Source: Verrucomicrobiaceae bacterium (GTDB lineage: Bacteria; Verrucomicrobiota; Verrucomicrobiia; Verrucomicrobiales; Verrucomicrobiaceae). Taken from it: DNA of 64,000 bases. The stretch's first letter is position 1. Each line of letters begins with the position of its first letter. The notes under the pieces are model-generated. The model did not search any database. It was not told where the DNA came from and saw only the letters and a program-made list of their open reading frames with translations. The DNA lies in assembly GCA_947466075.1 (NCBI GenBank), contig CANIBP010000004.1:1-64000 (forward strand). Direction: 5' to 3'. The position numbers and the translations under genes were made by a program. Below, piece by piece: positions 5,876 through 53,150 of this stretch.

Positions 5876-5938
5876 CTGCGGAATCCGACACAGCATTTGC
5901 TGAGATGTTCGTGAAAGGTCAACGTTTCTAGCGGGACC
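5876..5938 (+). promoter_or_regulatory. Shared sulfatase-upstream element, copy A (sigma-54-like)
   Basis: Lies directly upstream of the sulfatase start at 5939. It begins CTGCGGAATCCGACACA and continues to TTTGCTGAGATG. The G of CCGACAC (5887) and the G of TTTGCT (5899) are 12 bases apart, which is the -24/-12 geometry of sigma-54 promoters (consensus TGGCAC-N5-TTGCW). The -24 box carries GA where GG is usual. Closely similar sequences precede two other sulfatase genes at 25742 and 44411. The conservation is seen directly; a promoter role is inferred. Confidence 0.5.
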
Positions 5939-7363
5939 ATGCGCCTCCATTTGCTCGCCATTTTCTCTACCCTCTGCCTTCCCCTCTTCGCTGAAAAGAA
6001 GCCAAACTTCGTGGTCATCTTCACCGATGACCAAACTTATCGCGCCATTGGTTACAACAACCCGGCGGTAAAGACGCCGAACCTCGACCGGTTAGCGATG
6101 GAGGGGCTGCGCTTGAATCGCGCGTTTGTGGCCTCGCCGATCTGTGTGGCGAGCCGGGCGAGCATTTACACGGGGATGTTTCCTCAGCAGCATGGCTCGG
6201 TCGCGTTGTCTTCAGCGGGATTCAAGAAGAGCGTGGTCGAGGAGAAGCGCTTCATGACCTTGCCGATGATGCTGGGGCAGGCGGGTTATCACACTGCGCT
6301 GTATGGGAAGTCGCATCTGGGTGAGCCGACGACGTTTGGTTTTGCTGAAGGTCGAGAGATCAAGGACGCCAATGACGAAGAGACGTTCGAGGAAGCAGAC
6401 AAGTTCTTGAAGCGGGAGTCGAATACAGGGCGCCCTTTCTTGCTCTGGCTCACGCCTCATAACCCGCATGTGCCTTACACCGCCCCGCAGCGGTTCAAAG
6501 ACATCTACAAGGACAGCGTCATCACGCTCGATCCGAACTGGATGGAGTCGCCACCGATGCAGAGTTTCTTCAATCAAACGCCCCCTGGCAAGATCGGCTT
6601 CCGCGATAGCCAACTCTCGATCTATCCCAATGCACCTGCCGGTCAGACCTGCGGCCCGCCGCGCTCGGCGGAGGCCATGAAGGAGGTCATCAAAGCCTAC
6701 TACGGCGATGTGACCATGCTCGATGAACAAGTCGGCACGCTCGTGGAGCAAATGAAAGCCGCCGGACTCTATGAGAACACGATCATCATCTTCCTGTCTG
6801 ACAACGGCTACCACCTCGGCAATCACGGCTTGGGAAACAAGATCACCATGCACGAGGAACCGGTGCGTGTGCCGATGTTCATCCATTCGCCGCTGCTGCC
6901 CGTGAAGGGTGCGAAGAGCGAGGCGCTGGTGTCATCACTCGATGTGTTTCCGACTGTCATCGACTTTGCAGGAGCCACGGCACCGCCGCAGCTCATGGGC
7001 AAATCTTTGCGCCCGATCATGAGCGCACCCGACTCGACGGTGCGCGATTACGTCATCACGGAATGCGTCGGCCCGCCGGAAAGCCGAGTCGGCACCGGGC
7101 ATCGCATGGTGCGCACAGATCACTTCAAATACATGCTCTCCACCGACGACGAGGAAGCCTTCTTCAACCTGCGCAGTGATCCCTATGAAATGAAGAACAT
7201 TATCACCGACTCATCACTGAGCGCCGAGATCGAACGTCACCGCGCGATGCTGCGCGAGTGGTCCGTCAGCGTGGGTGAGAAGCGATTGCCGCTAGACGAG
7301 GCCCGGACGCAGCCACGCAAAGGCAAGGCCAAAGCCGCCGCGAAGCCGAAGAAACAAAACTGA
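5939..7363 (+). CDS. Secreted sulfatase (S1 family, CVASR type)
   Basis: A 474-residue exported S1-family sulfatase with a signal peptide (about 1-18). The metal-binding start motif FVVIFTDDQ is at 24-32. The formylglycine cysteine is Cys69 in CVASR, the Ala variant of CxPxR. Later motifs are GKSHLG, a TPHNPHVPY segment and the metal site SDNGYHLGNHGLGNK, a layout resembling iduronate-2-sulfatase-like members. It ends in a strongly basic Lys/Ala/Pro tail. The enzyme should hydrolyse sulfate esters of a polysaccharide or oligosaccharide outside the cytoplasm; the substrate is unknown. It follows the shared upstream element and begins a run of two sulfatases and a DUF1080 fusion. Confidence 0.9.
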   Translation: MRLHLLAIFSTLCLPLFAEKKPNFVVIFTDDQTYRAIGYNNPAVKTPNLDRLAMEGLRLNRAFVASPICVASRASIYTGMFPQQHGSVALSSAGFKKSVVEEKRFMTLPMMLGQAGYHTALYGKSHLGEPTTFGFAEGREIKDANDEETFEEADKFLKRESNTGRPFLLWLTPHNPHVPYTAPQRFKDIYKDSVITLDPNWMESPPMQSFFNQTPPGKIGFRDSQLSIYPNAPAGQTCGPPRSAEAMKEVIKAYYGDVTMLDEQVGTLVEQMKAAGLYENTIIIFLSDNGYHLGNHGLGNKITMHEEPVRVPMFIHSPLLPVKGAKSEALVSSLDVFPTVIDFAGATAPPQLMGKSLRPIMSAPDSTVRDYVITECVGPPESRVGTGHRMVRTDHFKYMLSTDDEEAFFNLRSDPYEMKNIITDSSLSAEIERHRAMLREWSVSVGEKRLPLDEARTQPRKGKAKAAAKPKKQN

Positions 7364-12826: not shown

Positions 12827-14164
12827 ATGCGACATCTCCTCCTGCTCTCTTTGTTCCTCTGCGGCTTCGCTCATGCCGCCACCACGCCGAACATCGTCCT
12901 TATCTTCATCGACGACATGGGCTATGCGGACATCGGCCCGTTCGGTAACAAAGAGGTGCGCACGCCGCATCTGGATAAGTTTGCGACCGAGGGCATGAAG
13001 TTTACGAGTTTTTATGCGACGCCGGTTTGCTCCATGTCTCGCGCTTGCCTGATGACAGGCTGCTACAACACTCGCGTCTCCATTCCTGGTGTGCTTTTTC
13101 CGCGAGATACCATCGGCTTGCACTCCGACGAGGTCACGCTGGCCGAGATCGTGAAACAGAAGGGCTACGCGACCTGCGCCATCGGCAAATGGCATCTCGG
13201 GCACTACCCAGAGTTCATGCCAACGCGTCAGGGCTTTGATCATTACTTCGGACTGCCCTACAGCAACGACATGCAAGCCGGACGCAAAGAGATGCCGCCG
13301 CTGCCGCTCTATGATGACGAGAAGGTCATCGAGACACAGCCTGATCAATCCCAACTCACTCGCCGCTACACGGAACAAGCCGTGAAGTTCATCCGCGAGC
13401 ACAAGGAAGCGCCGTTTTTTATCTATCTGCCTCACACAATGATCCACGGGCCTCTGGCTGCTTCGGAGGCCTTCATAGGCAAGAGCAAAATGGGCCTGAT
13501 TGGCGATGCTATCGAGGAGATTGACTGGTCCGTTGGTCAGATCATGACCACGCTTCAGGAACTCAAGCTCGATGACAACACGCTCGTCATCTTCACCTCT
13601 GACAATGGCCCCGCAGGTCGCGCGGCACCACCTTTGCGTGGCAACAAAGGCACCAACTTCGAAGGCGGCGTGCGCGAGCCCTGCATCATGCGCTGGCCCG
13701 GCAAGATCCCCGCTGGCACGATATGCAATCAGATCGCCGGCAACATCGACATCCTGCCCACCTTTGCCAAACTCGTCGGCATCGAGCCAGCGAAGGACCG
13801 CATCCTCGATGGGCGTGACATCACCCCGCTCATGTTCAATGCCAATGCTGGCCCCGTGCGTGACACGCATCTCTACATCGGCGGTAACAATGCCGCAGCC
13901 ATTCGCCAAGGTGATTGGAAGCTCTTCCTCAAAGGCGACGCTGCCGACAAGAAAGCCAAGAAAGCGGCTGGCAAAACCAAGCCCCCCAAAGGCGGCCCCG
14001 TGCCCAGTCTTTACAACCTCGCGACCGACCCCGGCGAAACCCAAGACGTCGCCGCCGCCAATCCCGAAATCGTCGCCCGTCTCAAGCAAGAACTGCTCAG
14101 CCGTGAGGCAGAGATCCAGGTGAACAAACGGCCAGCGGGGAAACATGCCGAAGGGGCGAAGTAG
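12827..14164 (+). CDS. Secreted sulfatase with unusual CSMSR maturation motif
   Basis: A 445-residue S1 sulfatase with a signal peptide (about 1-17, ending AHA). I chose the ATG at 12827; the frame is open 57 bp further up to a GTG, but only this start begins with the signal peptide. Motifs are NIVLIFIDDMGY, TPHLDKFATEG, GKWHLGHYPEF and FTSDNGPAGRAAP. The expected maturation motif reads Cys68-Ser-Met-Ser-Arg followed by ACLMTG, so the Pro/Ala position holds Met. A Lys/Ala-rich insertion lies near residues 365-385 and the tail is basic. It resembles N-acetylgalactosamine-6-sulfatase/arylsulfatase A types. Whether Cys68 is converted to formylglycine is the open question. Confidence 0.85.
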   Translation: MRHLLLLSLFLCGFAHAATTPNIVLIFIDDMGYADIGPFGNKEVRTPHLDKFATEGMKFTSFYATPVCSMSRACLMTGCYNTRVSIPGVLFPRDTIGLHSDEVTLAEIVKQKGYATCAIGKWHLGHYPEFMPTRQGFDHYFGLPYSNDMQAGRKEMPPLPLYDDEKVIETQPDQSQLTRRYTEQAVKFIREHKEAPFFIYLPHTMIHGPLAASEAFIGKSKMGLIGDAIEEIDWSVGQIMTTLQELKLDDNTLVIFTSDNGPAGRAAPPLRGNKGTNFEGGVREPCIMRWPGKIPAGTICNQIAGNIDILPTFAKLVGIEPAKDRILDGRDITPLMFNANAGPVRDTHLYIGGNNAAAIRQGDWKLFLKGDAADKKAKKAAGKTKPPKGGPVPSLYNLATDPGETQDVAAANPEIVARLKQELLSREAEIQVNKRPAGKHAEGAK

Positions 14165-20831: not shown

Positions 20832-22208
20832 TCACCGCACCCAAACTTCTCTTTCACTCGCATCCATCTCAGCCTCCCACGCCTTTAATTCCGTTTTGAG
20901 GTCTTGGAGGATGTCGGGGTGCTGGTAGCCGAGGTCGGTGTGTTCGCTGATGTCGGTTTCGAGGTTGAAGAGGAGGTCCATGGTGTTGCCGTCGTTGATG
21001 TATTTCCATTTCCCGTGACGGATGGCGTGTTGCTGACGGTTGGAGCGGTCGATGCGCCAGAAGAAGCTGCGCTCAATGGGTTTGGCATCGGCGGCGAGAA
21101 GCGGGAGGAGATTGATGCCATCGAGGGGCTTGGGTGCGGGTGTCGTGACTCCGGCGGCAGCGAGGAAGGTTGTATGAAGGTCCATCGTGATGGCCATTTG
21201 CGAGGTGACTTTGCCTTTGGGCAGTTTGGCTGGCCAGCGCATGAGGCAGGGCACGCGAATGCCGCCTTCCCAGACGGTGGCCTTGTGATGGAAGAGCGGC
21301 AGGTTGCGGCTGTAACGTTCGCCGCCGTTGTCGCTGGAAAAAACGACGAGCGTGTTGTCGGTGAGGCCGTGTTTCTCCAATTCGGCGAGCATCTGGCCAA
21401 CGCCGAGGTCGATGCGCTCGACCATCGCTTTGTAAATGGCGCGGCTGCCGTGGTGCATGCTTTCCTTCGTGACCATCGGTGTCTCGGGAGCATCCGGCGG
21501 CTGGAAGGGGCCGTGTACAGCAAGGTGCGGCACGTAAAGGAAGAACGGCGCAGCTTTGTGATCACGAATGAATTTCACGGCGCGTTCGTTGACGAGGTCG
21601 GTGAAGTAGCCGTCGCGTTTCACGGGCTTAAGACCATCCCGCAACGCGTAAGTGCCGTCATAGTAGGCGTGCTTGTAATAATCGGCGTGGCCGAGGAGTT
21701 CGCCGAAGTACTCGTCGAAGCCGCGTTTGGTGGGATTGAACTCGTCTTTGAAGCCGAGATGCCATTTGCCGAAGGCACCCGTGGCATAACCAGCGGCCTT
21801 GAGTCGGTCAGCGATGGTGGTTTCGGTCAACGGTAGGCCGAGCGCATGGATGTCGGGTTCGTTGACCCACTGGCCGTTTACACGGCGTGACTGTTCCGCG
21901 GTATAACCGAAGGCGTATTCAAGTCCGCAACGCTGTTGCCAACGTCCGGTCATGAAGCCGGTGCGCGCAGGTGTGCAAACAGGTGCGTTTGAGTAGAAAT
22001 CGGTGAACTTTACCCCTTCGGAGGCGAGGCGGTCGATGTTCGGCGTGGAGATGTCTGTGCAGCCCATGCAGCCGAGATCGCCATAGCCGAAGTCATCGGC
22101 GAGGATGAAGACGATGTTGGGTGGTGCCGCACCCTCCTTCGCCAAGGCTACGGCGGGCAAGAAGAGCGAAGGGCAGAGGGCGAAGAGAAAGAGAAGCAGC
22201 GAGCGCAT
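20832..22208 (-). CDS. Secreted sulfatase (CTPAR type)
   Basis: A 458-residue S1 sulfatase with a signal peptide (about 1-23). Motifs in order are NIVFILADDFGYGDLGC, TPNIDRLASEG, the formylglycine cysteine Cys78 in CTPAR followed by TGFMTGR, GKWHLGF and FSSDNGGERYSRN. The GYGDLGC start and DYYKHAYYDG segment resemble arylsulfatase A / N-acetylgalactosamine-6-sulfatase types. It is the first gene of a two-gene minus-strand operon with the DUF1080 protein. No basic tail is present, unlike many sulfatases here. The substrate is unknown. Confidence 0.9.
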   Translation of the reverse strand: MRSLLLFLFALCPSLFLPAVALAKEGAAPPNIVFILADDFGYGDLGCMGCTDISTPNIDRLASEGVKFTDFYSNAPVCTPARTGFMTGRWQQRCGLEYAFGYTAEQSRRVNGQWVNEPDIHALGLPLTETTIADRLKAAGYATGAFGKWHLGFKDEFNPTKRGFDEYFGELLGHADYYKHAYYDGTYALRDGLKPVKRDGYFTDLVNERAVKFIRDHKAAPFFLYVPHLAVHGPFQPPDAPETPMVTKESMHHGSRAIYKAMVERIDLGVGQMLAELEKHGLTDNTLVVFSSDNGGERYSRNLPLFHHKATVWEGGIRVPCLMRWPAKLPKGKVTSQMAITMDLHTTFLAAAGVTTPAPKPLDGINLLPLLAADAKPIERSFFWRIDRSNRQQHAIRHGKWKYINDGNTMDLLFNLETDISEHTDLGYQHPDILQDLKTELKAWEAEMDASEREVWVR

Positions 22209-25741: not shown

Positions 25742-25806
25742 CTGCTGAATCCGACACAATCTTTGCTGAGATTCGGATGAAAAACCTGCGTTTCAGCGCA
25801 CACGCC
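25742..25806 (+). promoter_or_regulatory. Shared sulfatase-upstream element, copy B (sigma-54-like)
   Basis: Begins CTGCTGAATCCGACACA and continues TCTTTGCTGAGAT, then reaches CTGCGTTTCAGCGC before the ATG at 25807. The G of CCGACAC (25753) and the G of TTTGCT (25765) are again 12 bases apart. It lies in the gap between the divergent TPM-like gene and the sulfatase, where a promoter is needed. It closely matches the copies at 5876 and 44411. Confidence 0.5.
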
Positions 25807-27594
25807 ATGAAACGCCTTCCCTCTGTTTTTCTCTGCGCCCTCTGTGCTTTCGCTCAGGCTGCGGATAAACCCAACATCATCCTCATCTACACTGACGACC
25901 ACGGTCATGCTGATCTCGGCATCCATGGCGTGATGAAGGACATCAAGACGCCGAATCTCGATGCACTGGCCCGCAGTGGCGTGGTCGCGACGCATGGTTA
26001 CAGCACCGCGCCGCAGTGCGTGCCATCGCGCGGCGGATTGATGACGGGCAAGTTCCAGGGTCGCTTCGACCTCGATAACAACGGCTCTGCGCTGGACGGC
26101 TTTAACAAGGAGACCACCATCGCCACGCGATTGCAGAGCGCGGGCTATGTGACTGCGCAATTCGGCAAGTGGCACCTCGGACCGCAGAACGAGATCACGC
26201 GGCATGGCTTCAAACATGTGTATTCGCAGCACGGTGGGCAGAAGTTTGCCGCGAACATCACGCTCGATGGCAAAGATCGCCCGATGAGTGATCTCGCACC
26301 CGAGGCATATCATCTGGATGGCTGCTCCAAGGCGGCTGCGTCGATCATTGAGCGCTACAAGGACCAGCCTTTCTTCCTCTACGTCGCCTATCGCGGCCCG
26401 CACACGCCGCTGGATGCGCCAAAGAGTTACATGGATCGCTTTCCTGGCGATATGCCGGAACGACGACGCGCCGCGCTGGCCATGCTCTCGGCCATCGACG
26501 ACGGTGTGGGGCTCATCACGAGCACGTTGAAAAAGCACAACCTCACCGAGAGGACGCTCATCTTCTTCATCGGCGACAACGGTGCCCCGCTGAAGATCCA
26601 CAAGATCGACTCACCCCTCAATGGCGATGCCGGAGGTTGGGACGGCAGCCTCAACAATCCGCTCAACGGCGAAAAAGGCATGCTGGCCGAAGGCGGCATG
26701 TCCACGCCTTTCCTCATCGCTTGGCCAGGCACGATCCCCGCCGGTCAGGTTTATGAGCATCCCGTCAGCGCCCTCGATGTCGCTGCGACGGCTGCCGCGA
26801 TCACGAACCTGCAATTGAAGTCCGGCGATCTCGATGGTGTGAATCTTCTCCCACACCTCACGGGTGAAAACAAAGCCGCACCACATGATGCGCTCTACTG
26901 GCGCTGGAGCGCCCAAAGCGCCATCCGCGAAGGAAACTGGAAACTCCTGCGTGGTGGCGAGCGCGAATACCTCTACGACCTCGCCACCGACCGCGAAGAG
27001 AAGCACAATCTCGCCACGCAACATCCCGAGATCACCACGCGACTCCGCAGCAAGCTCAAATCATGGGCCGACGGCCTCACACCACCCGGCATGGCGCTCG
27101 GCCCCATGGCCTCGACTTGGAACGACTACTTCGACCACTACCTCGAAGGTAAAACCATCGCAAACACGTTCAGCAAGGCACCCAAAGTAGAAGCTGATGC
27201 CGGCTTCCAAGGGTGGTTGGCACGCAATGGCACTCTCAACGTAAAGGATGGGGTCCTGCAACTCACCGCCGACAAAAGCAAACAATCGCCCTTCATCACC
27301 CGTAGCCAACTCAAGCTCAAAGGCCCACTCACTGCCACATTTAGCATCAAGTCAGACACTGCCGGCGCAGGCGGCATCGCCTGGCGTATGGATGGCAATA
27401 AAGACTTCCTCCCCGCGAATCGAGTCGCTTTCAAAGTTAGCGCTGAGAGCGATTGGCAGATACTTGACGTCGAGCTTCCTCCAAGCGGCAAGATTATTCA
27501 CCTGCGCCTGCATTTCCCTGGCGGCAGTACTCAGATTCAAAAGATCGAACTCAAAGATGCGGCAGACAAAACCGTGCTTAGCCTCAAACCCTGA
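25807..27594 (+). CDS. Secreted sulfatase (CVPSR type) with C-terminal beta domain
   Basis: A 595-residue exported protein. I chose the ATG at 25807, which begins the signal peptide MKRLPSVFLCALC; the frame is open upstream through the promoter-like element. Sulfatase motifs are NIILIYTDDHGHADLG, TPNLDALARSG, formylglycine Cys71 in CVPSR, GKWHLGP and FFIGDNGAPLK. The sulfatase core ends near residue 465. The last ~125 residues form an extra beta-sandwich-like module (NGTLNVKDGVLQL, then WRMDG, ending with IELKDAAD). A related module ends the sulfatase at 44476. It may bind carbohydrate. Expression is probably driven by the shared element just upstream. Confidence 0.9.
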   Translation: MKRLPSVFLCALCAFAQAADKPNIILIYTDDHGHADLGIHGVMKDIKTPNLDALARSGVVATHGYSTAPQCVPSRGGLMTGKFQGRFDLDNNGSALDGFNKETTIATRLQSAGYVTAQFGKWHLGPQNEITRHGFKHVYSQHGGQKFAANITLDGKDRPMSDLAPEAYHLDGCSKAAASIIERYKDQPFFLYVAYRGPHTPLDAPKSYMDRFPGDMPERRRAALAMLSAIDDGVGLITSTLKKHNLTERTLIFFIGDNGAPLKIHKIDSPLNGDAGGWDGSLNNPLNGEKGMLAEGGMSTPFLIAWPGTIPAGQVYEHPVSALDVAATAAAITNLQLKSGDLDGVNLLPHLTGENKAAPHDALYWRWSAQSAIREGNWKLLRGGEREYLYDLATDREEKHNLATQHPEITTRLRSKLKSWADGLTPPGMALGPMASTWNDYFDHYLEGKTIANTFSKAPKVEADAGFQGWLARNGTLNVKDGVLQLTADKSKQSPFITRSQLKLKGPLTATFSIKSDTAGAGGIAWRMDGNKDFLPANRVAFKVSAESDWQILDVELPPSGKIIHLRLHFPGGSTQIQKIELKDAADKTVLSLKP

Positions 27595-37200: not shown

Positions 37201-37299
37201 CTTTTCCAAAAGTGGCATCACCTCGCGCTCGAAGCTCACGGGCGCGGCAAAGGCGAGCCGTGCAAAAACACAAAGTAAGATACCGATAATAAGCTTCAT
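34255..37299 (-). CDS. PSCyt1 / DUF1549 / DUF1553 surface cytochrome-like protein
   Basis: A 1014-residue exported protein with a signal peptide (about 1-19). Two planctomycete-type cytochrome c domains carry C35-NKC-H39 and C139-FKC-H143. DUF1549 follows (~240-460; RRVTYDLIGYPPTLDEI, WGRHWLDYTR, CARCHDHKFDPI), then a charged helical region. DUF1553 (~720-990) has WLTTPDSTQAALVARAAVNR and RLEYEPILNTMSRL. CARCH in the DUF1549 part adds a third CxxCH-type site. The start overlaps the anti-sigma stop by 4 bp, so it is translated from the sigma operon. It is probably a surface partner of the DUF1501 protein. Confidence 0.9.
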   Translation of the reverse strand: MKLIIGILLCVFARLAFAAPVSFEREVMPLLEKRCNKCHYPEEQRGGLDLTRIATMLRGGDDLGPAIVPLKPDESPLIQVLTGAKKPEMPKKGEKLPAAEIELLRRWITEGAHDDSPTFASDDVAFFEREIRPVLAERCFKCHAGDEPEHGLRLTSRQGIISGGQRGPAAVAGKPEASLLINAIRHEGELKMPRRGDKLSDAQIAAFEQWIAKGLPWPAQEKVLARAKQFTISDADRDHWAFRPLPKAVPANWSIDATLKPHHEKLGLTPAPDADRHRLLRRVTYDLIGYPPTLDEIAVFVKDTSPDAFEKVVTRLLDSPQFGWRWGRHWLDYTRNGANAQSNRGPGLDTERYAAWVAQCFNEDRPWDWFARIHLAGDKMKAFDGADYSVDQALAAAVPLNGQRTFEDIATQTFVLMDKLDEGVEFMGRSLMGISLECARCHDHKFDPISQRDYYSLLGFFQSSWYAPVPVNAKSRVEAEAAAAKHRALIAEQARLNGFIRKTSIKLNVGGGGRVKRWQESRIPILTPKDKRLRELEIAVVRAELADAEKNKTASLAADLRTTLRELEARLKNHQPPKYDFRTLGQLNHFIGGHKTQLGLIKRATSLHETELVRELEEHLVYWEEERQRWIERSRFGGFAKTDPEVAELAKADARINEITAELVSNPAQPWTAPKDTHLYVRVDGGLRRAEDLQPLDDKAKAAGLEFNSNDHNRVWMHPYFVGDARLLLRGDVLYPDQLVPRATPQFFGESKRELEGSGRLQLAEWLTTPDSTQAALVARAAVNRAWQHLFGEALCRTPKELGRLGEQPELPELIDGLAAHFVAKGWSMKKMIREIVLSRAYRQSAVTTEQDIAKDPDNRLFARQSVRRLEYEPILNTMSRLRTGQPFASTGNLDGADYAPYFDKPTVYDVIDRRVASISATQALFLMNQPQTARDLAGKLTNRLRLDDKTALPDVLAIVYETLLQRPPTDAERDSAQGFLDRRRKQTGTTQARDEVREFITLLLCGNEILYIE

Positions 37300-38216
37300 G
37301 GCAGGGGTTCGTTGATCACACCGGACAGGCGCACATCATCGAGATAGTGCGCCGCGCGGTTCGCAGGTTTTCCATCCATCGTCGCCGCCCACATTGAGAT
37401 CACCAGGATGCGACTGCCTGGCGGCACATCGATCATGAGCGTGATTGTCTGCCAACCATCCGTTCCCGCAGGCACCGAAACGCCGCGCGCCGCATACGCG
37501 AGCGCATGCTCGTCGATCTCGCCCCACATTTCCTTCATCCATCGCTCCTCGACCTTTTCCGGTCCGTCCGCAAACGCGGCAGCCCGCAACACATAACGAT
37601 CCTTCTTGCCAAGAACGGACGGATGAAAGGAGGCGCGAAGCTCGATTTGTCGAGTCGTCGAACCGAAGGCCTTCTGCTGATTTTGCAGATCCACGATGCA
37701 ATGCGTCCGGCTGGAGAGGTCCGTCTTCACCGGGTCCAATTTCAACATGCGCGCGCCGTCCTTCGGATTCACCCCTGCCTCGATCGAAACGACCTTCGCC
37801 TCATCACCACCCCATTGCCCCATCTGTTTCGGAAACCCGCTCTGCCAACGGAAGCCATCACCTTCAAAACTCTCACGCAGCAAAGACCAACTCCGCCCAT
37901 TGCCCGCATACGCCCACACCACCGACGTGCAGAACATCCCAAACACAATGCCCGCCGCCGCCGCCGTGAGCGGACGCCAGGAAAGCCAGTGCCCGCCGCG
38001 TCTTGTCCATGACACCATCGGCACAGTGAGCAGCTCGCGCATCACCTCCGCTGACGCGGCCTCTGCCTCCAGTGCCACATCCAGCTCGGTGTGGCGGAGG
38101 TAGAGGTCCGCTAGGGCGTCGTCCACTTTCAGCGCCGCTTCGAGGCGGCGCGTCTCTTCCTCCGACGTTTGTTCAGCGATGTAGTGCTGAATGAGATCGT
38201 TCCAGTCGGTGTTCAT
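37296..38216 (-). CDS. Membrane anti-sigma factor-like protein (cassette 1)
   Basis: A 306-residue single-pass membrane protein. The cytoplasmic N-terminus (1-75; an acidic helix with TSEEETRRLEAAL and LYLRHTELDVALE) resembles FecR/anti-sigma N-terminal regions. The membrane segment is at about 83-104, preceded by WLSWRPLTAAAAG. The ~200-residue external part looks like a beta-sandwich (ARMLKL, THCIVDLQ, AHYLDDVRLS). It overlaps both the sigma factor and the DUF1549/1553 gene by 4 bp. The protein at 52239 is a clear paralogue, sharing the membrane segment and the AHYLDDV ending. It probably binds the adjacent sigma factor until an external signal is sensed. Confidence 0.8.
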   Translation of the reverse strand: MNTDWNDLIQHYIAEQTSEEETRRLEAALKVDDALADLYLRHTELDVALEAEAASAEVMRELLTVPMVSWTRRGGHWLSWRPLTAAAAGIVFGMFCTSVVWAYAGNGRSWSLLRESFEGDGFRWQSGFPKQMGQWGGDEAKVVSIEAGVNPKDGARMLKLDPVKTDLSSRTHCIVDLQNQQKAFGSTTRQIELRASFHPSVLGKKDRYVLRAAAFADGPEKVEERWMKEMWGEIDEHALAYAARGVSVPAGTDGWQTITLMIDVPPGSRILVISMWAATMDGKPANRAAHYLDDVRLSGVINEPLP

Positions 38217-38746
38217 AGTGCTTCCTCCGTTGCCAGGGTGCGCTCCACGCAGTCCAGCAGGGCGAGCCGGATGCGGTGGAGCAGTTTGTAGAGTGACATC
38301 GGCGTCTGACCGCGCCGTGCCGCAAGATCATCCATGCGCGTGCCTTTCTTGTAGGCGCTGAGCACCAGCTCACGCTGCACCGCAGGCATCTTTTGCAGGC
38401 AGCCCTCCAGCGCCTCCCGGCGTGGCATAACGCCCTGTTCGTGGAGGGCAGCCCTGTCCGCGAGACGGTTCACCAGATCCTCATCAAAGACATGGCGGTC
38501 ACGCTTCCGGTCGCGCAGCACCGCCAGCGCCTTGTTTCGTGCGATGCCTGATGCCCAGGCGCGGAAATCACGGGCCGGATCGAAATCGCCGAACTTCTGC
38601 CACAGCACGATGATCGTCTCCTGCAGCGCCTCTTTGGCATCCTCGCGGGATGGCAGCATGGCCCGCAGCAAAGTGTGCAATGCCGCCTCATGCTCCGCAA
38701 AGAGGCGGAGGAACTGGTCATGGTGCTGGTCGTCGAGGTTTGGCAT
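38213..38746 (-). CDS. ECF-type sigma-70 factor (cassette 1)
   Basis: A 177-residue RNA polymerase sigma factor of the ECF type common in Rhodopirellula and Verrucomicrobium. Region 2 covers ~10-75 (LLRAMLPSREDAKEALQETI, FRAWASGIARNKAL). Region 4 covers ~115-170 (MPAVQRELVLSAYKKGTRMD, SLYKLLHRIRLALLDC). It is the first gene of a minus-strand operon followed by its anti-sigma, DUF1549/1553 and DUF1501 genes. It should direct transcription of genes for polymer use once released by the anti-sigma. The 210-bp divergent gap to 38958 should hold its promoter. Confidence 0.9.
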   Translation of the reverse strand: MPNLDDQHHDQFLRLFAEHEAALHTLLRAMLPSREDAKEALQETIIVLWQKFGDFDPARDFRAWASGIARNKALAVLRDRKRDRHVFDEDLVNRLADRAALHEQGVMPRREALEGCLQKMPAVQRELVLSAYKKGTRMDDLAARRGQTPMSLYKLLHRIRLALLDCVERTLATEEAL

Positions 38747-43605: not shown

Positions 43606-44340
43606 TTATTTCGCCGCCGCAGCAGCCGTGACAAAGGGTTTCAAAGCGGCAGCGAGCAGTTTGTAGCCCTCGGCATTGAAGTGAAGCATGTCCTCGACAA
43701 ACAACTCGGGGCGCACTTTGCCTTCTTTGTCGAGGCTGAGCGTGCGGGTGTCGATATACGTGATGCCAGTCTGTTCCTTCGCCCAAGCGACGATCATGTC
43801 GTTGAGCTTGTTGCCTTCATCGATCTGTTTGAGACGTTTGATCGTCGGGCTGAGGCCGATGTAATAGATCGGGATGTTTGGGAGACGCTCGCGCATTTTC
43901 GCCACGAAGGTTTTGAAGTCGTTGAAGACATCTTCGGCAGGCCAGCCCGCATTGATGTCATTGCCGCCAGCCCGCAGGAAAATAGCCTTCGGCGCATACG
44001 GAAAGATCATGCGATCGGCATAAAAAGTAGTGTCCTTGATCTGATTGCCGCCGAAACCGCGATTCAGCACCGGCATGCCCGCAAAATCCTCCGCGAGTGT
44101 CTTCCAGCGCACGATGGTCGAGGAGCCAACAAATAGAATACTACCCTTCGCTGGCGGCGACTCCTTGTCGGCAGCTTCGAAGGTCGAGATGTTCTTCTCC
44201 CACTTCTTATAATCATGCGTCGTGGGCTTCGGTTTCGGCCAGACATCCGGCACCGCAGGTTTTTTCGGCTCCGCATGGAGTGCAACAGGCAACGTTAGGA
44301 AAACAACGGCAAGGATACGAAGGGCAGTGGAGCGAATCAT
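43606..44340 (-). CDS. Secreted SGNH/GDSL hydrolase
   Basis: A 244-residue exported esterase-like protein with a signal peptide (about 1-23). The SGNH blocks are present: FVGSST with Ser74 as the likely nucleophile (GSS in place of GDS), GFGG at 96-99, GGND with Asn127, and Asp217/His220 in DMLHFN. It should remove acyl groups such as acetate from carbohydrates. The C-terminus is an Ala-rich tail. It is divergent from the sulfatase at 44476, whose promoter-like element lies between them. Confidence 0.87.
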   Translation of the reverse strand: MIRSTALRILAVVFLTLPVALHAEPKKPAVPDVWPKPKPTTHDYKKWEKNISTFEAADKESPPAKGSILFVGSSTIVRWKTLAEDFAGMPVLNRGFGGNQIKDTTFYADRMIFPYAPKAIFLRAGGNDINAGWPAEDVFNDFKTFVAKMRERLPNIPIYYIGLSPTIKRLKQIDEGNKLNDMIVAWAKEQTGITYIDTRTLSLDKEGKVRPELFVEDMLHFNAEGYKLLAAALKPFVTAAAAAK

Positions 44341-44410: not shown

Positions 44411-44475
44411 CTGCGGAATCCGACACAGTATTTGCTGAGATGTCGGTGTAAGCGCTGCGTTTCACCCACTGCACC
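44411..44475 (+). promoter_or_regulatory. Shared sulfatase-upstream element, copy C (sigma-54-like)
   Basis: Begins CTGCGGAATCCGACACA and continues GTATTTGCTGAGATG, then CTGCGTTTCAC before the ATG at 44476. The G of CCGACAC (44422) and the G of TTTGCT (44434) are 12 bases apart. It lies in a divergent gap where a promoter is expected and matches the copies at 5876 and 25742. Confidence 0.5.
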
Positions 44476-46365
44476 ATGAAGTCCTTCGCCATCATCCTCT
44501 TCTCACTCGGCTCCTCGCTCTTTGCCGCAGCACAACCAAACGTGATCGTCATCCTCGCTGATGATCTCGGCTGGAGTGACACGACGCTGTATGGCAATAC
44601 AGCGTATTACCAGACGCCGAATGTCGCACAGCTCGCGCAGCGTGGCATGACCTTCACTCGGGCGTATTCGGCCAGTCCATTATGCTCGCCGACGCGGTCG
44701 GCTTTGCTGACGGGTCAAAGTCCGGCACGCACAGGCATCACGGTGCCGAACTGCCATGTGCCGCAGGTGGTGTTGCAAGCGACGACGGGCAAAAAGGCAC
44801 CGCCAGATCAAAAGGCTATCATGCCTGATCCGGTCACGCGTTTGAAGACGGAGTATCGAACCATCGCCGAGACGATGAAGGACGCAGGTTATGCCACGGC
44901 GCATTTTGGAAAGTGGCACCTTGGCCCAGAGCCGTATTCGCCGCTGCAGCAGGGTTTTGATGTCGATCTCCCGCATACGCCGGGCCCAGGGCCAGCGGGC
45001 ACGTATGTGGCACCGTGGAAGTTTCCGAACTTCAAAGAGAAGTCGCCCGGCGAGCACATCGAGGACCGCATGGCAGCGGAGGCAGTGGCGTGGATGGAGC
45101 AGCAGAAGGACAAGCCTTTCTACATGAACTACTGGATGTTCAGCGTGCATGCGCCCTTCGATGCAAAGAAGGCGAACATTGAAAAGCATCGCGGCCGCAT
45201 TGATCCGAAAGATGCGCAACGTAGCCCGACCTACGCGGCTATGATTCAGAGCATGGACGAAGCCATAGGCACGCTCCTCGATGCGCTGGATCGTCTGAAA
45301 CTCGCGGACAACACGATCATCATCTTCACGGCCGATAATGGCGGAAACATGTACAACGAGGTCGATGGCACAACGCCAACGAGCAACCGCCCACTGCGCG
45401 GTGGTAAGGCGACGATGTTTGAAGGCGGCACGCGAGTCCCCGGAGTCATCGTCTGGCCCGGAGTCGCCGCCGCAGGCAGTCGCAGTGACGCGATCATCCA
45501 AAGCGAGGATTACTATCCCACGCTGCTCGCAGGTCTCGCTTTGAAACCCGCCGAAGGCCAAAGATTCGATGGCACGAGCATCCTTCCCGCACTGAAAGGC
45601 GATGCGCTTGCCGACAAAGCTGTCTTCCAATATTTCCCGCACAATCCTGGCGTGCCGGATTGGCTTCTGCCTGCTGTTTCCGTGCATCGCGGTGATTGGA
45701 AGCTCATCCGCATCTTCCACGGCGGTGAGAAAGGCGCGCATCGCCACCTGCTTTTCAATCTGCGCGATGATCTCGGCGAAAAGAACAACCTCGCCACACA
45801 GAAGCCGGAACTTGTAAGTGAACTCGACGCCATGATCGAAAAATTCCTCGCCGACACAAAGGCCGTCGTGCCTGTGCCGAACCCCACGTTTGATCTGTCG
45901 AAGTATCATCCCGAACTCGAAGGCAAGCAGCAACCGAAGGCCAAAGCCAAAGCGCCTGCGAAAGGCAAGGACGATGGCGATCCTGCGCTGCAAGGTTGGA
46001 AGGCTCGTGACTGCAAGGCATCCGTGAAAGACGGCATCCTACGCATCACCAACATCGGCGACGCGTGCTTTCTCGGCTTCTCCGCCGCCAAACACAGCGG
46101 TCCGACTACCGTGAAGTTTCGCATCAAAGCCAAAGCCGGCACCAGTCATTTCGATTGGCTTGCCAATGGGACTGAAGGCAAAGCCCACCGCGCCGATTTC
46201 ACCCTCAAAAGTGGCGACTGGGAAGAAATGGTCATCGAACTCCCCGCTCAAGGTCCGCTCGGCATTGTGCGGCTTTATTTGCCCATGCAGGAGTCAGCAA
46301 TTGAGATCGACTGGATCGAACTCATTTCCAAGAGCGGTGGTAAGCCGACACGTACGGCATTCTGA
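44476..46365 (+). CDS. Secreted sulfatase (CSPTR type) with C-terminal beta domain
   Basis: A 629-residue S1 sulfatase with a signal peptide (about 1-19). Motifs are [30 protein letters not shown], formylglycine Cys70 in [13 protein letters not shown], and [12 protein letters not shown]. The core ends near 480. A Lys/Ala/Pro-rich linker ([15 protein letters not shown]) leads to a ~120-residue beta-sandwich-like module ([22 protein letters not shown]) related to the one on the sulfatase at 25807. It may anchor the enzyme to polysaccharide. The shared upstream element precedes it, and a PhoD-like phosphatase gene follows by 45 bp. Confidence 0.92.
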
Positions 46366-51711: not shown

Positions 51712-52242
51712 ATGCTCAGTGAACTCGATCAAGAGCGCTTCATGCGACTTTGGACTTCCGCTCAACCGGCGGTGGCAAATTTTGTCCATGCGCTGGTGCG
51801 GGACTTTGGCGCTGCGCGGGATGTGTTGCAGGAGACGGCACTGGTGATTTTTCGGCGGTTTGAGGAGTATGATGGCGAGCGACCTTTTGTGGCCTGGGCG
51901 CTGGGGATCGCTCGGTTTCAGGTGATGGGACTTCAGCGGGATGCGGCGCGGAGTTTGGTGGTGTTTGATGACGAGTTGCTGGAGAAGTTCACGGACTCAT
52001 GGGCAGAGCTGGCTCCCATTGTGTCGGATCGCAGCGTGGCGCTGGAATCCTGCATTGAGCGACTTGCGGGCCATGCGCGGCGACTGGTGCAGTTGCGTTA
52101 TTTTGAAGATCTCAATGCCGAACAGATCGCCCATCGACTCGGTGGTAACGGCGCATCCGTGCGCGTGACCTTGCAGCGCATCCGCGAGCAACTGCGCACC
52201 TGCATCACTCAACAAGTTCAACTCGAAGGAGGACTATCATGA
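51712..52242 (+). CDS. ECF-type sigma-70 factor (cassette 2)
   Basis: A 176-residue sigma factor of the same Rhodopirellula/Verrucomicrobium-type group as the one at 38213. Region 2: VHALVRDFGAARDVLQETAL and PFVAWALGIARFQVMGL. Region 4: LAGHARRLVQLRYFEDLNAE and VRVTLQRIREQLRTC. It overlaps the anti-sigma gene by 4 bp and heads a plus-strand operon that continues into a sulfatase. It probably switches on desulfation or polymer-use genes. Confidence 0.9.
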   Translation: MLSELDQERFMRLWTSAQPAVANFVHALVRDFGAARDVLQETALVIFRRFEEYDGERPFVAWALGIARFQVMGLQRDAARSLVVFDDELLEKFTDSWAELAPIVSDRSVALESCIERLAGHARRLVQLRYFEDLNAEQIAHRLGGNGASVRVTLQRIREQLRTCITQQVQLEGGLS

Positions 52243-53150
52243 AGGATTCCGAACAACTCATCGCCGACTATCTCGACAACGCCCTGAGCGCTGCGGATGA
52301 AGCGGAACTCAATGCTTGGCTCAAGGCTGATGCGGCCAACATGCAACGCTTCACCGAGGCGGTGATGTTTGAGCAGCAAATTCGAACCGCCGCTCAGGCC
52401 AAAGCGCAGCAACAAGCAGCGAGTGGATTTGATCAAAAGGCAGCGCCTACAAAATCACGCTGGCTTGCATGGCGTCCGCTCACCGCTGCGGCAGCAGGAA
52501 TCATGTTCGGCATGTTCTGCACGTCGGTGGTGTTTGGATTCGTGGTGCAGCAGCAAATCAAAACGCAGACCTTGTTCAGCGAGGGCTTTGAACAGACGGA
52601 CATGCCTCTGGATCGCGGTGTGCCTAGGCGGATGGAAGTTTGGGCGGGTGATCTTCAGGCTATCGACGGCACACAAGGCGACGTGCAGCCACTTGAAGGT
52701 CGGCGCATGGTGATGCTGCCGCCGGTGGAGAAGCGACAGTTCAGCTATGCTTTCCGGTTTATGGATATGGCAAAACTTCCGCCGATAGGAGCCACAGGAA
52801 CTCGTCAGATCGAAGTCACTGCTCAGTTTTATGGTGCGGCAGAAGGTGTGCAGAATCGCTTTCAGATTCGTCTCGCGGCTTTTGCCGAGGATGCCATTGG
52901 AGCGCGTGAAATATGGGTCAGGGGCAACTTGGATGAGCAGTCTCTCCTGCATGTGGCAAAGACAGTGAAAGTGCCAAAGGCTGCCCATGGCTGGACGACG
53001 GTGCGCTCGATAATCGATGTGCCTGCTGGGGCGAAGGTCGTGCTTGTCTCCCTCGCGGCGGGTGGCGCAGAAAACGAAGAGCCTAAAGTCGCGCATTATC
53101 TGGATGATGTGCAAGTCCGTCTCATCACCCACGAAGCACCGCTGCCGTAA
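52239..53150 (+). CDS. Membrane anti-sigma factor-like protein (cassette 2)
   Basis: A 303-residue single-pass membrane protein, paralogous to the one at 37296. A cytoplasmic N-terminus (DSEQLIADYLDNALSAADEA) precedes a membrane segment at about 81-103 that shares WRPLTAAAAGI and FGMFCTSVV with the paralogue. The external ~200 residues form a beta-sandwich-like domain ending AHYLDDVQV and PLP. It should hold the adjacent sigma factor at the membrane and may sense a carbohydrate or envelope signal with its outer domain. The next gene, a sulfatase, starts 24 bp later. Confidence 0.8.
   Translation: MKDSEQLIADYLDNALSAADEAELNAWLKADAANMQRFTEAVMFEQQIRTAAQAKAQQQAASGFDQKAAPTKSRWLAWRPLTAAAAGIMFGMFCTSVVFGFVVQQQIKTQTLFSEGFEQTDMPLDRGVPRRMEVWAGDLQAIDGTQGDVQPLEGRRMVMLPPVEKRQFSYAFRFMDMAKLPPIGATGTRQIEVTAQFYGAAEGVQNRFQIRLAAFAEDAIGAREIWVRGNLDEQSLLHVAKTVKVPKAAHGWTTVRSIIDVPAGAKVVLVSLAAGGAENEEPKVAHYLDDVQVRLITHEAPLP

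Follow-up and report, generated by a model that had tools for sequence, protein, structure and literature searches.

The 64-kb stretch of DNA that was analysed (hereafter the window) contains three copies of one sequence element, all on the + strand and each preceding a sulfatase gene (PF00884). A pattern search of the window found its core, GAATCCGACACA-N3-TTTGCTGAGAT, with zero mismatches at 5881-5906, 25747-25772 and 44416-44441. The corresponding sulfatase genes occupy 5939-7363, 25807-27594 and 44476-46365 on the same strand, with their ATGs (5939, 25807 and 44476) 58-60 bp downstream of the cores. Shuffling the window 100 times gave an expectation of 0.00 core matches, and a reversed control pattern had 0 matches in the whole genome. 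With three perfect cores and none expected by chance, the near-identity of the element before the three genes is confirmed, and is stronger than the original prediction had stated. The spacer between GAATCCGACACA and TTTGCTGAGAT is exactly 3 bases in 3/3 window copies, not the four to five variable bases first described, and a search with N4 gave no match. Other spacers (N0-N2 and N4-N8) were absent from the fetched loci, which had been chosen with N3.

Positions are numbered from the G of GAATCC, taken as 0, and conservation was counted in 68 distinct sites. The element is composed of a TTGC-like box A at -5 to -2, N7, GACACA at +6 to +11, N4 and TTGC at +16 to +19, immediately followed by TGAGAT at +20 to +25 and, further on, by CGTT at +42/43. 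TTGC-N7-GACACA-N4-TTGC forms a direct repeat with a 21-bp period. In the first copy, the distal half-site of the putative operator (5876-5892) consists of box A cTGC at 5876-5879, N7 and box B GACACA at 5887-5892, while the proximal repeat TTTGCTGAGAT (5896-5906) carries a box A TTGC at 5897-5900, whose distance to the distal box A is exactly 21 bp. The second and third copies are built likewise, with distal half-sites at 25742-25758 (box A 25742-25745, GACACA 25753-25758) and 44411-44427 (box A 44411-44414, GACACA 44422-44427) and proximal repeats at 25762-25772 and 44431-44441. The search itself accounts for part of the conservation within the core, and relatives are not independent; outside the search pattern, C is found at -2 in 68/68 sites, G at -3 in 64/68 and T at -4 in 60/68, and CGTT occurs at +42 or +43 in 67/68, beyond the searched block. 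Hence, the conserved block proposed initially does exist, but its limits of about 45 bases do not hold: it starts earlier, with TGC at -4 to -2, and runs on to CGTT. The proximal repeat has a weak box B, which is not conserved in the 68 sites.

A direct repeat with a period of about 21 bp and with boxes A and B, as found here except for the unconserved proximal box B, is a feature of AraC/XylS-type operators. Those of AraC (araI1-I2), XylS (Pm) and MtlR (PmtlE) likewise comprise two direct-repeat half-sites, each with a 4-bp box A and a 5-6-bp box B. The AraC half-site is TAGC-N7-TCCATA (PMC5481539), a layout that TTGC-N7-GACACA matches exactly, in the distal half-site only. XylS binds TGCA-N6-GGNTA-N6-TGCA-N6-GGNTA, with a period of 21 (PMC4514859), and the element shares this period with it. 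Like the operators of this family, the element is situated near the -35. Compared with these operators, the box sequences are new, the proximal box B is degenerate, the promoter core is ECF-like and the binder is a candidate.

The original prediction had favoured a sigma-54 promoter with an altered -24 box, GA replacing GG. CGACACA-N3T-TTGCT does resemble TGGCACG-N4-TTGCW: the GC of TTTGCT and a G 12 bp upstream are common to both, and the genome encodes RpoN as well as homologues of sigma-54 activators. At -13/-12, G18 is present in 68/68 sites and C19 in 67/68, their spacing being imposed by the search. However, the -24 dinucleotide is GA in 84/86 sites and GG in 0/86, and the single RpoN of the genome has a canonical RpoN box (ARRTVAKYRE). 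In addition, conservation reaches beyond the -24 region, up to -5 on the upstream side, and extends downstream to CGTT, so that the element includes parts outside the sigma-54 contacts. Position 17 of TTTGC varies to G or C in the carbohydrate sites of this genome, and a sigma-54 promoter leaves CGTT, with its 1-bp spacing flexibility, unexplained. A genome scan for canonical sigma-54 sites allowing 1 mismatch was uninformative, its control giving almost as many matches (90 vs 75 matches). A sigma-54 promoter is scarcely credible here. The other option raised at the outset, another activator site, is the one that we retain, as a probable AraC-type operator.

The proximal repeat is next to, or overlaps, the expected position of a -35, and adjoins TGAGAT-N16/17-CGTT, which resembles the -35 and -10 of ECF promoters. 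In the window, the putative -35 TGAGAT lies within the proximal repeat (5901-5906, 25767-25772 and 44436-44441), and CGTT, the putative ECF-type -10, is at 5923-5926, 25789-25792 and 44458-44461, all on the + strand. ECF promoters with a -10 of CGTC or TGTT and a spacer of 16 ± 1 are documented (PMC3426412). CGTT, 16-17 bp past TGAGAT, is similar to these -10 sequences of ECF41-type promoters and falls within the same spacer range (PMC3426412), whereas the -35 would be TGAGAT instead of TGTCACA, with an activator site apparently overlapping it. From the distances between promoter core and start codon, very short leaders are expected at the genes bearing the element.

In view of this core, the entire block might be read as an ECF-sigma promoter of unusual length, in which GAATCCGACACA...TTTGCTGAGAT would be an extended -35 region and CGTT the -10. 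The 16-17-bp spacing agrees with this view, and among the 35 Sig-70_gvs1-like matches of the genome, two are encoded in the window. However, a conserved block of about 30 bp with a 21-bp repeat exceeds what sigma region 4 reads, CGTT is found at other genes without the block, and most sites have no adjoining ECF gene. ECF genes are close to sites only at the C1 and C2 loci of this genome, and the two window genes are at least 6 kb from a site, so that no general linkage between ECF genes and sites emerges. We consider an ECF promoter alone unlikely, and a separate activator operator next to an ECF-like core the better description. A putative gene for a membrane anti-sigma factor follows each of the two ECF sigma genes of the Sig-70_gvs1 type in the window (37296-38746, - strand; 51712-53150, + strand); the two loci have a common stretch, LTAAAAGI.FGMFCTSVV, and adjoin PSCyt/DUF1501 genes or a sulfatase.

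In the fetched neighbourhoods, an ORF start follows 81/82 distinct sites, in most cases at a distance of 55-67 nt; copies scattered inside genes, which would have spoken against a promoter element, are thus not what is observed. Sequence signatures identified 37 sulfatases and 20 DUF1080 proteins among these 81 ORFs. The other 24 are mostly additional sulfatases and DUF1080 proteins missed by the signatures, PVC-type dehydrogenase-like proteins (a label that reflects our reading of their sequences), glycosidases and an aldolase that adjoins an AraC-family gene. Overall, for nearly all sites, the gene 55-67 bp downstream encodes an exported sulfatase, a DUF1080 protein, a PVC-type dehydrogenase-like protein or a glycosidase. 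The fixed distance to ORF starts and the 37 sulfatases found by signature support the idea, already put forward, of a promoter-linked element heading a sulfatase-rich regulon.

A 3-mismatch search detected the core in 37/143 genomes, the source genome included. The public genome collection yielded 28 stretches with the core, 26 of which are from Verrucomicrobia (Prosthecobacter, Brevifollis and Verrucomicrobiaceae MAGs, two stretches coming from one MAG labelled Akkermansia). The other two, from a Desulfobacteraceae MAG and Thalassobius, were regarded as chance or misbinning. For genome-wide site counts, we used a profile built from sequence alone. It gave 8 clear sites (E ≤ 2.5e-5) in the 6.4-Mb source genome, the three of the window and five others, which precede genes for a DUF1080 protein, a ThuA-like protein, a GH5-like protein, a sulfatase and a GH43. 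Profile sites were present in 54/143 genomes (source included), mostly Verrucomicrobiaceae: in 46/48 genomes of the same genus (source included; none in G027 and G046), in six genomes of genera g4, g9 and g11 of the same family, and in two of family f3. A sub-class of sites has ACGTNT in place of CGTTT (L150:4675, L151:4989(-), L153:6213(-) and L077:3058(-)); these share CTGCTTTTGATA about 12 bp further on and stand before ThuA-like, GH5-like and GH43 genes.

The candidate regulator is a 276-aa AraC-family protein encoded at C30:20292-21119 of the source genome G000 (L155:4293-5120), unlinked to the window. Its gene is divergent from an operon of a DeoC/LacD-family aldolase and a DAK2-domain gene. 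The protein has the C-terminal double-HTH domain of AraC/XylS regulators (HTH_18 PF12833, 63.5 bits for a cut-off of 33.6; HTH_AraC PF00165, 47.2 bits for a cut-off of 26.6), and its PDB matches are AraC-type DNA-binding domains (AraC, XylR, RamA and SoxS); in the N-terminal part (residues 1-170), where such regulators have a ligand-binding domain, no Pfam match was found. In the source genome, the aldolase-DAK2-AraC cluster (L155:2599-6612) directly adjoins rpoN.

With the profile, an isolated distal half-site, TTGCNRAATCNGACACA, was found in the gap between the AraC and aldolase genes (C30:20257-20286), adjoining the AraC gene, and the distal half-site is also present in this gap in L231, L239, L252 and L233. 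That the distal half occurs apart from the block, at an AraC gene, is a further point against an ECF promoter alone. Among 20 further orthologues (f1, f3 and f4), 17 have a half-site that scores at least 12/16 and points away from the AraC gene, half-sites being taken as best matches with a chance expectation of about 0.1 per region; three of these 17 (L310-L312, family f3) match poorly or ambiguously and were not counted as firm, and a recognisable half-site is absent in three of the 20. At the AraC genes, a GC at +18/19, outside the search pattern, stays in the 21-bp register in 16-17/19 cases. CGTT was not found at the aldolase promoter. Two half-site copies 50-75 bp apart are seen at L231:5886-5958, L239:7300-7374 and L252:12383-12474(-), which might permit looping or let the AraC and aldolase genes be controlled separately.

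The presence of the motif tracks that of the AraC gene. In family f1 (68 genomes), 49 genomes have both, 3 the motif only, 1 the gene only and 15 neither (Fisher P=3e-11, phylogeny ignored); outside the genus of the source genome, the corresponding numbers are 4, 2, 0 and 14 (P=0.003, phylogeny ignored). This linkage is also left unexplained by a sigma-54 promoter. As for the discordant genomes, G022 has a site without a close AraC orthologue but is 52% complete, and G046 has the AraC gene without a full site at threshold, yet contains a half-site. G055 and G062 (genus g9) have a site without a close AraC orthologue (best about 25% identity), as would be expected if a different regulator with the same direct-repeat specificity owned the operator and the AraC gene were merely one more target. 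Against this stand the AraC/XylS geometry of the element, the divergent layout of an autoregulatory kind, with a half-site close to the AraC start codon, and the fact that G027, G057 and G067 lack gene and motif alike although their same-genus relatives have both. Such a regulator thus appears quite improbable, and the 276-aa AraC-family protein remains the candidate binder.

The repeat, CGTT, the fixed distances, the gene set and the distribution are all directly observed in the sequences. Taken together with the regulator gene, they make it probable that the element is the double operator of an AraC/XylS-family activator fused to an ECF-type promoter, with the candidate AraC protein as binder. 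We infer that the 276-aa protein recognizes TTGCYGAATCCGACACA-N3-TTTGCTGAGAT, its predicted binding sequence. It would be triggered by a sugar-derived ligand, which we would guess to be a sugar or phosphorylated sugar tied to the aldolase pathway. A dimer with ligand would then occupy both repeats, two turns (21 bp) apart, its promoter-proximal half-site abutting and partly covering TGAGAT-N16/17-CGTT, and would bring RNA polymerase with an ECF-type sigma to TGAGAT/CGTT. Transcription would start only a few bases ahead of the ATG. Exported enzymes that remove sulfate or attack glycans would thereby be switched on, the predicted targets being secreted sulfatases, DUF1080 proteins, PVC-type dehydrogenase-like proteins and glycosidases. 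The half-site near the ATG of the AraC gene is suitably positioned for autoregulation, and presumably controls that gene itself.

Verrucomicrobia have very many sulfatase genes (PMC5615132). Our literature searches returned no report on the regulation of these genes, nor Verrucomicrobia promoter maps. The present analysis supplies a candidate regulator, its predicted operator, a list of putative targets in 54 genomes and a putative promoter core.

The promoter core may extend beyond this regulon. For signal-peptide genes without the operator, CGTT is the top enriched 4-mer 11-26 bp before the start (4.8-fold; 37 occurrences near the start vs 29 in a more distant region four times as long), and a weak TGARAT lies 16 bp upstream of it. 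For the remaining genes, AATA, ATAA and TTAG are enriched most and CGTT less (2.8-fold). This hints that Verrucomicrobia have a separate promoter type for exported-protein genes, possibly a general alternative-sigma promoter giving near-leaderless mRNAs. We tentatively propose, as an idea that may well prove wrong, that in Verrucomicrobiaceae a TGARAT-N16/17-CGTT promoter of this kind serves near-leaderless mRNAs for exported proteins, and that an AraC-family activator was built onto it for a sulfated-polysaccharide regulon. If true, this would be an AraC-plus-ECF composite instead of AraC acting with the housekeeping sigma. Individual exported-protein genes without the operator have CGTT(T) some 13-21 bp upstream of the ATG, in the window at 12827, 17954, 43606-44340(-), 48852 and 20832-22208(-) and elsewhere in L226-L265, and the same genes display no Shine-Dalgarno-like peak.
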